Assembly: GCA_020850715.1 (NCBI GenBank)
Contig: JADZED010000025.1
Span: 1 to 64,000, forward strand
DNA length: 64,000 nucleotides
Source of the DNA: Acidobacteriota bacterium
GTDB taxonomy: Bacteria; Acidobacteriota; Vicinamibacteria; Vicinamibacterales; CAVVIG01
Direction: 5' to 3'
Below are positions 42,567-49,037 of the stretch, piece by piece (position 1 is the stretch's first letter; every line of letters starts with the position of its first letter). The translations under genes and the position numbers were made by a program. The notes under the pieces are model-generated. The model made no database searches and was not told the origin of the DNA. It saw only the letters and a list, made by a program, of their open reading frames with translations.

Positions 42567-43253
<687 letters not shown>

Positions 43254-43327: not shown

Positions 43328-44164
43328 TTATGCCCCGGCCCGGAGCCTGGCGAGCAGCGTCCTGGCGATCGCCGGCGCGTCGGCCGGCAGGTGCGCATCC
43401 CAGTTGCGGGCATCCATCGGAATGAGCACCACCTTGCCGGCCGCCCGCTTGCGGCGCTGCGCCGTGATGGCCGCGGCGAGCTGCTGCGGTGGCGCGACCT
43501 CGGAGGCCATCAGGAAGACGCACACTTCCTCGTTCGGCGTGCCCCACCTCGCCGCCTGAGCCCACGCATCAGCCACCGAGGTTTCATCGACCGCGCTCAC
43601 GAATCGCCCGAGCAGCCGCGGATTCTTCGCGCGCGCGAAGAGCTTCGACTTCGGCACGAACGCGAGGTCGAATCCCGCTGCCGCCGCTTCTTCGTAGCCC
43701 TCGCCCGACCCTGCGATTGCCTGGCGGAAGCGGTCGACGGTTGCCTTGCGCACGAACCGATCGCGCGTGGCGCGTTCGTGGCGGAACTGCTGCCCGCCTC
43801 CGGAGCGCTCGGCGGCGGAGGGCTGCGCCTCGGCCGCCACGGGCGGCACGGCGGTCTCGGCGGCTGCGGCGGCCGCCGTGCGCGCCGGCGACGATTCGAC
43901 CGGCGGCGTGGCGGCCGCGTCTGCAGCGGGCGCGCCGGACGCGGCGCGAGCCGCATCATGGGCCGCGCGCTGCCCGGCATCGGACAGGATCCGATACGCC
44001 TCGGTCAGCTCGGCTGCGCGATCGGCGGCCATCGCCTGGAACTCGGGGCCGAGGTGCTGGACCTTGTCGGGATGATAGCGGGCGATCTGCGCGCGAAACG
44101 CCCGCTTGATGTCTTCGGCTGGGGCGCCCGGAGGCAGGCCCAGCAGCCCGTAGTAGTCCTTCAG
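43328..44164 (-). CDS. J-domain protein, apparently starting at CTG
   Basis: A 278-aa protein. Residues 1-60 are a J domain with HPD at 31-33 ([29 protein letters not shown]). An Ala/Pro-rich linker (about 70-120) leads to a C-terminal domain (about 125-278) with [20 protein letters not shown] and [16 protein letters not shown], which I do not recognise. No ATG, GTG or TTG exists between the GspE stop and the J domain. CTG at 44164 has GGAG six bases upstream and yields M-K-D-Y-Y. The first in-frame ATG (44032) would remove most of the J domain. The alternative is read-through of the GspE TAG, as both genes share a frame. Confidence 0.85.
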
Positions 44165-44173
44165 CGCCGTCTC

Positions 44174-46183
44174 CTATTTCTTGAATTCGGCGACGTTGGC
44201 CGCCGGGAGTTCGCGGCGTCCCTGCGCCGCCTCGCGCTCTTTCAGCCGTCTGGCCGCGCGGCGCTCCTCGGTGCTGCGCGCGCAGTACGGACAGAAGTTC
44301 CACCCCGGCTGCAGCGCGCGGCCGCAATGCGGACAGCCGCCGTTCAGCCGCTTGCCGCACTGAGGGCACGCGATGAAGTCGACGCCGACTGCCGCCCCGC
44401 AGCCGGCGCACAGCGTCCGCATCTCGCGGACCTCGGTGACGACGCGCAGCAGCTCTTCGGGGGTGGTGACGCCGCTCTTGACCTTCGCCAGCCCGTCTTC
44501 GCCGAGCGTGACCATCCCGGCGGCGATCGCCGCCTCGCCGAGCTGATCCTCGGAGGCGCGCGCGGAAATGAGGCGGCGCAGCCGATCGTCGACGCGCATC
44601 ACCTCGTAGATGCCGATCCGGCCGCGGTAGCCGGTGTGATTGCACTGGTCGCAGCCGACCGACTTGTAGAACGGGATCGTGGCGGCGTCGGCATCCGGGA
44701 TGTTCAGCGCGCGCAGCGTGTCGGGCGGCGGGGTGTACTGCCGCCGGCACTGCGCGCAGAGCCGGCGCACCAGCCGTTGCGCGACGACGCCGACCAGCGC
44801 CGAGGCAATCACGTAGGGCTCGGTGCCGATGTCCATCAACCGGGTGCACACCGACGGAGCGTCGTCGGTGTGCAGCGTCGACAGCACCAGGTGGCCGGTC
44901 TGCGCCGCCTGCATCGCGATCTTCGCCGTCTCGGCGTCGCGAATCTCGCCGAGGAGGATGACGTCGGGATCCTGCCGCAGGATCGAGCGGAGCGCGCTGG
45001 CGAACGTCAGCTTGATCTTCTCGTTGATCTGGGTCTGGTTCACGCCGGCGATTTGATACTCGATCGGGTCCTCGATCGTGATGATGTTGGTCCGCTCGGA
45101 CTGCACCGCCCGCAGCGCCGCGCTCAGCGTGGTCGTCTTGCCGCTCCCCGTCGGGCCGACCACCAGGATCATCCCGTGCTGGTGCCGCAGGAAGCCGCGC
45201 AGCTCCTCGAGCGCGATCGCCGACATGCCGATCTCCTCGAGCGCCGGCACGCCCTTGCGGTGATCGAGGACGCGCATCACCACCTTCTCGCCAAACAGCG
45301 TGCGCAGCGTCGAGACGCGGAAGTCGACCTCGGTGCCATCGTCGGCCGATGCGCGCAGGCGGCCGTCCTGCGGCAGCCGCTTCTCGGCGATGTCCATGCC
45401 CGCCATGATCTTCAAACGGGCAATCAGCCCCTCGTGGACCCATCTGGGCAGATCCATGACCTCCTTGAGGAGGCCGTCGAGACGATGGCGGATGAGGACG
45501 CCCTTCTCCATCGGTTCGACGTGGATGTCGCTCGCCTTGCTCTTGATCGCGCTCCGAACCACGAGGTCGACGAGATCGATGATCGGCGCCGCCTCGCTGC
45601 GCTCCTGCAGGCCGGCCGCCGGCTCGAACACGTCGTCTTCGGACCGGCGCGCGATCGCCGTCTCCCGGTGCGCGGCGGCACCCGCGGCGCCGCGGCCCGG
45701 CCGCGGGGAATCGCCGAGCGCCAGCTCCGCGGTCCCTGGAGCGAGCCGCATCAACTGCTTGTCGGGATAGCCGAACTGGATCGCGTCCACGATGTCGCCG
45801 CGGGTGGCGACCACCTGCTTGATCCGATACCCCGTCTGGAATTCGAGATCCTGCACGAGGCTGAAGAGCAGCGGATCGGACATCGCGACCGTCAGCAGGT
45901 TCTTTTCGAGCCGCACCGCCACGCAGACCCGCTTGCTGGCAACCTCTTTCGGAATCAGCACCACGGCCGACGGCTCGGGTGGGTTCTCGGCGAGATTGAT
46001 GTACGGGAAGCCGAGCTGAAACGCGAGCGCCTTCGCGATCTGCTTCTCGGTCGCAAGGTTCATGCGCACGAGCACCACGCCGACACGCTCGCCGGTCCGC
46101 CGGTGCTCGATCAACGCCGCCTTGAGATCGTCTTCGGTGATGAGGCCTGCCTGAATCAGGCACTCGCCGATCTTCTTGCGCAC
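44174..46183 (-). CDS. GspE/PilB-family ATPase with C-terminal double zinc ribbon
   Basis: A 669-aa assembly ATPase for type II secretion or type IV pili. It has an N-terminal MshEN/GspE_N domain (IGECLIQAGLITEDDLKAAL), Walker A GPTGSGKT at 343-350, Walker B DPDVILLGEIRD near 405-417, His box THLVLSTLHTDD-like TGHLVLSTLHTDDA, and the usual tetracysteine zinc site (CAQC...CDQC). A further module at about 597-645 with CAGC, CPQC, CPHC and CPYC forms a double zinc ribbon not normal for the family. The start is GTG at 46183. The gene lies between the PilM/T2SSB fusion and the J-domain gene. Confidence 0.93.
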   Translation of the reverse strand: MRKKIGECLIQAGLITEDDLKAALIEHRRTGERVGVVLVRMNLATEKQIAKALAFQLGFPYINLAENPPEPSAVVLIPKEVASKRVCVAVRLEKNLLTVAMSDPLLFSLVQDLEFQTGYRIKQVVATRGDIVDAIQFGYPDKQLMRLAPGTAELALGDSPRPGRGAAGAAAHRETAIARRSEDDVFEPAAGLQERSEAAPIIDLVDLVVRSAIKSKASDIHVEPMEKGVLIRHRLDGLLKEVMDLPRWVHEGLIARLKIMAGMDIAEKRLPQDGRLRASADDGTEVDFRVSTLRTLFGEKVVMRVLDHRKGVPALEEIGMSAIALEELRGFLRHQHGMILVVGPTGSGKTTTLSAALRAVQSERTNIITIEDPIEYQIAGVNQTQINEKIKLTFASALRSILRQDPDVILLGEIRDAETAKIAMQAAQTGHLVLSTLHTDDAPSVCTRLMDIGTEPYVIASALVGVVAQRLVRRLCAQCRRQYTPPPDTLRALNIPDADAATIPFYKSVGCDQCNHTGYRGRIGIYEVMRVDDRLRRLISARASEDQLGEAAIAAGMVTLGEDGLAKVKSGVTTPEELLRVVTEVREMRTLCAGCGAAVGVDFIACPQCGKRLNGGCPHCGRALQPGWNFCPYCARSTEERRAARRLKEREAAQGRRELPAANVAEFKK

Positions 46184-46316: not shown

Positions 46317-47876
46317 TCACGGCTTCCCAACCCGCAGCGATAGCCGACGCAATCTGCCGTCCCCGTCGCGCATCGTGACGGTCGTCTGCCCGATCTCGAC
46401 GACGGTCTGGCCGCCAATGTCGTCGCCCGCTTCGACGATCTGTCCGTCGATCATCGCGAGCTTGCGATCGGGGCTGAAGAGAATCGAGCCGAGCGTGGCG
46501 GCCGGCATCGCCGAGGGCGGGTTGGTCCGCGCTGCCGCACGCGCGGGCGGCGCGGCGATCGTCCGAACGACCGGCCTGTCCCCCGGCGCCGGCGCAGGCG
46601 GCGCCGCGACGGACCGTTCGCGGCGGATCAGGGGCGGCGCGGCCGCGGCGGTCGGCTGCGGTTCCGGCCCGCTGCCGCTCGTCCCCGGCGGGCGTTCGAG
46701 CGCCGGTGCCGGTCCGATCGTCGTCGTCCCCCTGGCAGCGGCCGCTGGCGCGATCGTCGCGCCGGCCATCGGCGCCGTCCCGCCGCGCCTCTGCGCCGGC
46801 GCGCGATCCGCGGACGCGCGCCCGATCGACTCCGGCCGCAGCCATGGCGACTGGCGCGCCGTCCAGCCGATGGCCATGCCGAACCCGACGCCGGCGGCCA
46901 CGGCGGCGGCGGCGAACCTGGCAGCGGCGATCCGGCGCTGCCGCTCGCGCAGCAGATTCAGCGGCGCGCGCCAGTCGGCGGCGGCCGCCCAGGCGAGCCG
47001 CAGCTCGATGCCGCGTTCGCGAAAGTCGCGCGACGCCTCGGACTCCTCGCCTGCGTCGACGCCGCTCATCGAGTCGAGCGGCTCGATCTCGACCTCCAGC
47101 TGCTCCATCATCAGCATCGACATGCTGCGCAGCTCGGGCAGCGTGCCGCAGAGGCACACCACGCCGACCGAAGCCGGCTCCAGGCCGGCCGTCGAGAACA
47201 GCTCGCGCAGGTCGGCGGCGAGCCGGGCCGCCACCTTGGCGCGCGGCACGCGCTCGCCGAACGGTTCGTTCTCGTGGACGTAGCCTCGCGGCAGCTCGCG
47301 GGCGCCCACCAGGACGTGGCCGCGCACGAGCGCCATGCAGGTCGCCTGCTCCTCGAGCGACACGTAGGCTTCGATGCCCGGGAGCGCGCCGCGACCCCGC
47401 CGCAGGCGTGCCACCGATGCGAGCGCCGCGCCGGGTGCGACGACCGAGCGCACGCGGATGCCGGCGAGCGTCAGCGGCCGCAGGGCCTCGGCGAGGTCCG
47501 CGCGCGACGCCAGTGCCGCCAGCACCGGACGGCGCGCGTCGTTCAACCGGGGGCCGGCCGGTGCGATGTCGACCAGCATGCCGCGCGTCTCGATGCCGGC
47601 CGAGCGCAGCGACTGCACGGCTTCGCGGCGCATGGCGTCGCAGGGCCCGGCGTCGACGATCGCCTGCCGATGATCGCCGCGCAGGCCCCACGCGACGACC
47701 GCGGCCTCCCGCCCGCGCAACTGCGCCAGCCGCCGGCGCGTCTCGCCGCTGCCGGCCGGGGACACCGACGTCGCGCGGATGCGCGTCCCGGCGCCGGCGT
47801 CGCGGCCCGCCGGCGCCTCGATTTCGACGATGCGACACTCGCCCGGCGCGAGCTCGATTCCGATGCGCGTGCCCAT
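46317..47876 (-). CDS. PilM-like protein fused to a GspB-type (T2SSB) C-terminal domain
   Basis: A 519-aa protein. Residues 1-310 look like a divergent actin-like PilM/GspL domain (MGTRIGIELAPGECRIVEIE, VSLEEQATCMALVRGHVLVG). One membrane segment follows (about 325-345, FAAAAVAAGVGFGMAIGW). An Ala/Pro-rich linker leads to a C-terminal domain (about 455-519) with LGSILFSPDRKLAMIDGQIV and GDDIGGQTVVEIGQTTVTM, which matches the T2SSB/GspC-type homology region. It is followed by gspE after 133 bases. The GspB assignment is from pattern memory; a PilN-like middle part cannot be excluded. Confidence 0.75.
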   Translation of the reverse strand: MGTRIGIELAPGECRIVEIEAPAGRDAGAGTRIRATSVSPAGSGETRRRLAQLRGREAAVVAWGLRGDHRQAIVDAGPCDAMRREAVQSLRSAGIETRGMLVDIAPAGPRLNDARRPVLAALASRADLAEALRPLTLAGIRVRSVVAPGAALASVARLRRGRGALPGIEAYVSLEEQATCMALVRGHVLVGARELPRGYVHENEPFGERVPRAKVAARLAADLRELFSTAGLEPASVGVVCLCGTLPELRSMSMLMMEQLEVEIEPLDSMSGVDAGEESEASRDFRERGIELRLAWAAAADWRAPLNLLRERQRRIAAARFAAAAVAAGVGFGMAIGWTARQSPWLRPESIGRASADRAPAQRRGGTAPMAGATIAPAAAARGTTTIGPAPALERPPGTSGSGPEPQPTAAAAPPLIRRERSVAAPPAPAPGDRPVVRTIAAPPARAAARTNPPSAMPAATLGSILFSPDRKLAMIDGQIVEAGDDIGGQTVVEIGQTTVTMRDGDGRLRRLSLRVGKP

Positions 47877-47996: not shown

Positions 47997-49037
47997 ATGG
48001 CAGCCTTGTCCGCTCACCGCAAGGACGGCATCTTCGGCGACGAAGACGGCGGGCGCATGCAGGACGACCTGCGGGCGCGGATCTCCGCGCTCGTGCTCGA
48101 GCGCGCGCCGCTGCTGGTCGGCGACACGATCGCGATCTTCCGCTTCAGCGGCGCCGAGCCGCTCGATCAGGAGTTCTGCACGCGCCTGGGGGAAATCGTC
48201 GTGCAGCTGCTCGCCTCGTCGATCCGCGACGGCGAGGTGGACCCGCGCAGCGGTTTTGTCGTCGACCTGCACCACCGGACGATGGAGCGCGGCCTCGCCG
48301 CCGGACCGCTGTTCGCGCTCGCCTACCTCGCGGAGCGCACGATCGTCGACGAGCTCGCGCTGAGCGATCGCTTCGGCGCCACCAGCGAGTCGTGGCCGCT
48401 GGTGGCGCAGCTCGTGCGCCGCGCCTCCTTCGATCTGCTCGCGGCCTACACCGAGCGCGTGCGCCTGGAGCCGACCTCCGCCGCGATCGTCGATCGGCTG
48501 ACGACGCTGCACACGCGGCCCATGCTCGACGCGGTCCTGGCCAAGCAGCTGGAGCGCGCGGGTCGCTACGGGTTCGAGATCTCGCTGATCCTCTTCGACG
48601 TCGATCGCCTGTCGGCGATCAACAGGCAGCACGGCTACGGCGTCGGCGATCGGATTCTCGAGCGGCTCGGAATCCTGATCCGCACCTACTTCCGCCAGCA
48701 CGACTGGGTGGCGCGCTATTCGGAGGACGTGATCGCGGTGCTGCTGATCGGCCCCGACGCCGAGCACGCGCACGAGCTGGCCGAGCGCGTCCGCGCCACC
48801 GTTGCCGACCGGCTCGGCTTCACCGATCACCGCGACGACACGGGGGTGGCCGTGACGGTCACCGCGGCCGTGATCAACGTGCGGGTCTCAGTCGGCGACG
48901 CCGTCGATCCCGAGCGGCTGCTCGCCGACGCCGAAGCGGCCGTCGAGCGGGGCAAGCGGGCGGGGCGCAATCGCGTCGAGCGGGTCGACGGCTACCCGAT
49001 CACCCGTACTCTTCCTCATAGTTCGCCTTCAGCCTAG
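47997..49037 (+). CDS. GGDEF-domain protein with degenerate active site
   Basis: A 346-aa protein. Residues 1-165 are a helical sensor-like region without a recognised family. Residues 168-330 form a GGDEF fold: [40 protein letters not shown] and [14 protein letters not shown]. The signature is SEDVI at 242-246 in place of GGDEF, so diguanylate cyclase activity is unlikely; it may be a c-di-GMP or protein-binding module. A GAGGGA ribosome site precedes the ATG. The last 38 bases overlap the convergent acs gene. Confidence 0.88.

Follow-up and report, generated by a model that had tools for sequence, protein, structure and literature searches.

The gene neighbourhood

The DNA analysed here is a stretch of 64,000 nucleotides (the window) from a MAG of 3.6 Mb, in 82 contigs, which is 93.6% complete with 1.56% contamination and is the only genome of its genus that was compared. 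Three genes on the minus strand are of interest, encoding a PilB/GspE-like ATPase, a J-domain protein (the J protein) and an ABC transporter ATPase. Their coordinates, and those of the features at the junction between the first two, are listed in Table 1.

Table 1. Features of the locus, with positions numbered along the window
Feature	Position	Strand	Evidence or remark
LolD/MacB-type ABC transporter ATPase gene, third in the neighbourhood	42567..43253	-	Walker A motif follows J in 44/45 loci
Gene for the J-domain protein, counted from CTG (278 codons + stop)	43328..44164	-	Orthologue in 54/162 genomes of the host order
C-terminal alpha/beta domain, residues 125-276	43337..43792	-	AlphaFold2 model, mostly pLDDT above 90
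J domain (DnaJ, PF00226) with HPD, residues 3-70 from CTG	43955..44158	-	Pfam E 1.1e-13; model and fold search
CTG, putative initiation codon of the J gene	44162..44164	-	Aligned codon also CTG in L120, L124, L125, L128
ACG codon	44168..44170	-	Slot of the family GTG, ancestral start lost (or the homologous codon may be GAG 44173-44171)
Shine-Dalgarno AGGAG	44171..44175	-	Spacer to CTG 6 nt; duplex energy -7.3 kcal/mol, ranking first among the 52 orthologues
TAG stop of the PilB/GspE-like gene	44174..44176	-	Final two bases also in AGGAG
PilB/GspE-like ATPase gene, GTG start 46183	44174..46183	-	17 family members have orthologues, at 76-88% identity

The ATPase combines an N-terminal MshEN c-di-GMP-type domain and a T2SSE ATPase domain with a double zinc ribbon at the C terminus; its tail is VAEFKK. 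The first two domains are shared with the secretion ATPases PilB, GspE and MshE; the zinc ribbon, and the pairing with a J protein and an ABC ATPase, set it apart. A first reading made from the sequence alone (the sequence-only reading) had called it GspE. That label proves too narrow, since the protein scores below the curated NCBIfam cut-offs for both PilB (577.2 against 675.65) and GspE (552.2 against 630.25), and we therefore use PilB/GspE-like ATPase. Just ahead of it on the same strand is an open reading frame (46317-47876) that matches GspC weakly at its C terminus and has no Pfam family; a GGDEF gene is close by on the plus strand (47997-49037).

The three genes keep the arrangement PilB/GspE-like ATPase, J, ABC ATPase throughout the host order, an acidobacterial one that is probably Vicinamibacterales. 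Within the window's family, exactly 17 genomes have the ATPase orthologue; these same genomes have the J gene, directly downstream, and the remaining 10 of the 27 have neither. The sequence-only reading had described a J domain fused or coupled to a secretion ATPase: the adjacency is indeed fixed (17/17 family members), but no real fusion was found. Long open frames upstream of J in two genomes (G024 and G002) looked at first like natural fusions, and turned out to be out-of-frame readings of GC-rich DNA and not GspE. No J orthologues were found elsewhere in the class outside the host order, and no full-length relatives outside the order in a sample of the phylum. The locus defines a conserved trio, consisting of an orphan PilB/GspE-like ATPase, a J protein and an ABC ATPase, of which targeted literature searching found no description.

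The J protein

In the J protein, a linker rich in Pro and Ala joins the J domain to an alpha/beta domain at the C terminus. The HPD motif (H31, P32, D33) is invariant in 48 J sequences, and together with the J domain is the feature held in common with DnaJ, CbpA, DjlA and HscB. Unlike these proteins it has no recognised G/F, zinc or CTD substrate domains, and has its own C-terminal domain instead. It scores below every NCBIfam equivalog cut-off.

The C-terminal domain has no match in Pfam. Its model bears a weak fold resemblance to NucC and AF2093, which have PD-(D/E)XK-like endonuclease folds. No E-x-K signature was seen at the expected strand, nor any obvious catalytic motif. Because the fold matches are weak and this signature is missing, we do not propose a nuclease role.

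Judged only from the unchanging HPD and the constant pairing of the genes, the J protein would probably be a specialised Hsp40 recruiting DnaK to this ATPase or to its client. A dedicated co-chaperone for one or the other would be the simplest reading.

The junction between the ATPase and J genes

The minus strand from 44190 to 44150, read directly from the window, is CCGAATTCAAGAAATAGGAGACGGCGCTGAAGGACTACTAC. After the TAG, the codons are GAG ACG GCG CTG AAG GAC TAC TAC, leading straight into the J domain. The sequence-only reading had noted that there is no ATG, GTG or TTG between the stop and the J domain, and that a GGAG lies six bases before the CTG at 44164. Both observations hold. The scan of the J-domain frame found no canonical start before an ATG at codon 45 (44032), located after the HPD; and the GGAG (44174-44171) is separated by the 6-nt spacer ACGGCG (44170-44165) from the CTG (44164-44162). 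A predicted RNA hairpin at the junction has the Shine-Dalgarno in its loop, with a z-score of only -1.2. No repeats were found.

Across the single TAG, the ATPase and J genes share a frame, as had also been noted. This is true of the window and of several family members, and is what first makes partial read-through of the TAG, giving a GspE-J fusion, worth considering. The frame relation is however not conserved in orthologues. Frames 0, 1 and 2 and the stops TAG, TAA and TGA all occur at this junction, so that a fusion cannot be a conserved product, and in many orthologues, including all four of the others that have CTG, the J gene is out of frame with the upstream gene. The search for a natural fusion among orthologues was negative, and a strong Shine-Dalgarno beyond the stop would be purposeless. 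Read-through, which the sequence-only reading had offered as one of two options, is consequently extremely unlikely.

Start codons across orthologues

Start codons were compared in 52 non-redundant J loci, with the CTG of the window as the reference codon. A canonical start is present at the aligned codon or within two codons of it in 47/52. In the remaining five, which lack one, the aligned codon is always CTG; these are the window and L120, L124, L125 and L128, four species from the distant genus g47. In the g47 species the CTG overlaps the TGA of the upstream gene as CTGA, and there is no ATG, GTG or TTG before codon 8. Overall usage is 10 ATG, 30 GTG, 7 TTG and 5 CTG. The upstream gene served as the control, and all 42 of its orthologues have canonical starts (8 ATG, 27 GTG, 7 TTG), which implies that the missing J starts are not general assembly noise. 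We also considered whether poor start codons keep J weaker than the upstream gene; this idea was dropped, because start usage is alike in both.

In most members of the window's family the junction reads TAG-GTG-GCG-CTC/CTG-AAG, which puts the start two codons ahead of the CTG of the window. Family members use GTG (10) or TTG at that position, or TTG or GTG at the CTG codon itself. The sequence-only reading had named a conserved absence of ATG, GTG and TTG in relatives as something that would support CTG initiation, and within the family this is not what is seen. Orthologues of other families mostly start at the CTG slot itself, in many cases overlapping the upstream stop (TTGA, GTGA, TAGTG); the CTGA of g47 parallels the TTGA and GTGA of other genera.

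The GTG slot is seen in L005, L006, L007, L009, L012, L136 and L147, with TAG-GTG-GCG-CTS-AAG. In L006 the junction is TAG GTG GCG CTG AAG GAC TAC TAC, and the CTG of the window therefore corresponds to the ancestral Leu-3 codon and was not newly placed, which counts against CTG as the start. Since the closest relatives use the GTG two codons upstream, it is the window that has lost a start codon.

Putative CTG starts are absent from the rest of the window's family and present in the four g47 species. In a maximum-likelihood tree the g47 rows fall in one supported clade and the window in another (its family clade has support 100/99), and CTG thus arose at least twice; the tree fixes the position of the window to the level of its family clade.

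Given that every other family member is canonical, whether two codons upstream or at the slot, it might be argued that the window carries a MAG consensus error or a minority allele, and that the true sequence has a canonical start such as a GTG after the TAG, with nothing unusual here. The genome is the sole one of its genus, fragmented and slightly contaminated, and one base would be enough: several different single-base changes at the junction would restore a canonical start. Against this, compared with its relatives the junction has both substitutions and an insertion of 3 nt, the strongest Shine-Dalgarno of the set is placed exactly for the CTG, which a random error would not create, and the control starts are uniformly canonical. 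Four independent g47 genomes have CTG at the same codon. This last point in particular indicates that the CTG start is probably real and not a sequencing slip, and we regard an error or minority allele as unlikely.

Evidence for a probable CTG start

At the proper spacing, the Shine-Dalgarno of the window's CTG ranks first of the 52. Those of the g47 CTG rows (AAGGG at 6 nt, -4.9 kcal/mol) rank third to sixth, and the median for canonical starts is -0.7. The difference between CTG and canonical starts has a Mann-Whitney p of 4e-4, a value that ignores shared ancestry and reflects effectively two events. Only about 1.4% of the CTGs in the window have a Shine-Dalgarno of -7 or better.

The ACG at 44170 has also to be weighed as a start, because it aligns with the GTG of the family members. 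The AGGAG abuts it with no spacer, the duplex energy at proper spacing is only -0.7, and no orthologue uses ACG, which makes initiation there very unlikely.

The portion of the J gene upstream of the first ATG is under purifying selection: for codons 2-44, pN/pS is 0.08-0.23 among the CTG species and 0.29-0.38 between the window and its relatives. This bears directly on the suggestion that translation starts at the ATG at 44032, giving a protein without HPD, or that the gene is being lost. No other canonical start lies within the first 45 codons, and two family genomes do have a damaged J gene. The Shine-Dalgarno of that ATG is weak (-2.5), however, and the HPD is invariant. The divergence of J relative to GspE gives a ratio of 2.75 for the window, within the family range of 2.68-3.16, so the gene is not decaying, and recent decay was rejected on these grounds. 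A downstream start or gene loss is accordingly quite improbable. The two damaged copies are a deletion that removes the J-domain core (L131, genome G034) and an internal stop or frameshift (L065/L121, genome G030); they could be real losses or assembly errors.

On the comparative evidence, the best fit is that the CTG is the start of the J gene, coupled to termination of the upstream gene, and we consider this likely. CTG as initiator was the other option raised by the sequence-only reading, and it gains support from its recurrence in four g47 species and from a well-spaced Shine-Dalgarno in both lineages. On balance we also favour the wider proposal that CTG is a natural and evolutionarily recurrent start of the J gene in the host order, in g47 as a CTGA stop-start, permitted by re-initiation together with a strong Shine-Dalgarno.

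In g47 the last codon of the upstream gene is CCC or TCC, although CCG and TCG are preferred. We do not claim selection for the C of CTGA, as L123 and L130, relatives whose start lies elsewhere, have the same C before TGA.

Proposed mechanism and comparison with known systems

We hypothesise that the J protein is made separately, with fMet initiation at the CTG at 44164. Ribosomes terminating at the TAG would be held by the overlapping AGGAG and begin again at the CTG, 9 nt further on, and the strong and well-placed Shine-Dalgarno would compensate for the weak codon. In the lineage of the window, the ancestral GTG immediately after the TAG may have become ACG or GAG, the substitution and the 3-nt insertion also creating the AGGAG. 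Genus g47 would have reached the same solution independently, with its CTG overlapping the TGA of the upstream gene.

To our knowledge, CTG starts have rarely been documented in bacteria, and annotation pipelines do not usually accept them. What our literature search on such starts turned up was limited to single genes and overlapping ORFs. Complexes on CUG have a lower stability in vitro than those with AUG, GUG or UUG, and in E. coli CUG initiates inefficiently (PMC11497404). Because the complexes are weak, the yield of J would be expected to be low. In S. aureus, conserved non-canonical starts have extended Shine-Dalgarnos and give about 10-30% of the AUG yield (PMC13009471). The ccpN (AUA), cvfC1 (AUU) and infC (AUA) genes of S. 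aureus/B. subtilis (PMC13009471) resemble the J gene in combining a weak codon with a strong Shine-Dalgarno and in being conserved across species. They differ in that their starts are AUA or AUU and were shown by Ribo-Ret and reporters, whereas the putative J start is CUG, would be coupled to an upstream stop, and is supported by comparative evidence.

The occurrence of CTG at the same codon in two lineages, with compensating Shine-Dalgarnos in both, offers a clean natural test of how strict re-initiation is about the start codon. If the proposal is true, gene callers limited to ATG, GTG and TTG will remove the J domain from this protein, and other genes with such coupling may carry the same kind of annotation error.

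Re-initiation is favoured by overlaps and by gaps of short length, and in E. coli it drops sharply as the distance grows (PMC10666635). The termination-reinitiation pairs described there share with the J locus the NTGA overlaps or very short gaps between functionally linked genes; the candidate J start differs in being CTG in five genomes and not ATG, GTG or TTG, and the coupling here is putative. Junctions in the window's family vary between an overlap of 4 nt and a gap of some 30 nt, the majority lying within 10 nt, and -4/-1 overlaps occur in f2, g47, L015 and L070. Some members of f12 have gaps of 50-117 nt, so short spacing is not universal. One locus (L127, genome G079) has about 100 nt of short AAGTAAA-type repeats between the upstream stop and the GTG of J.
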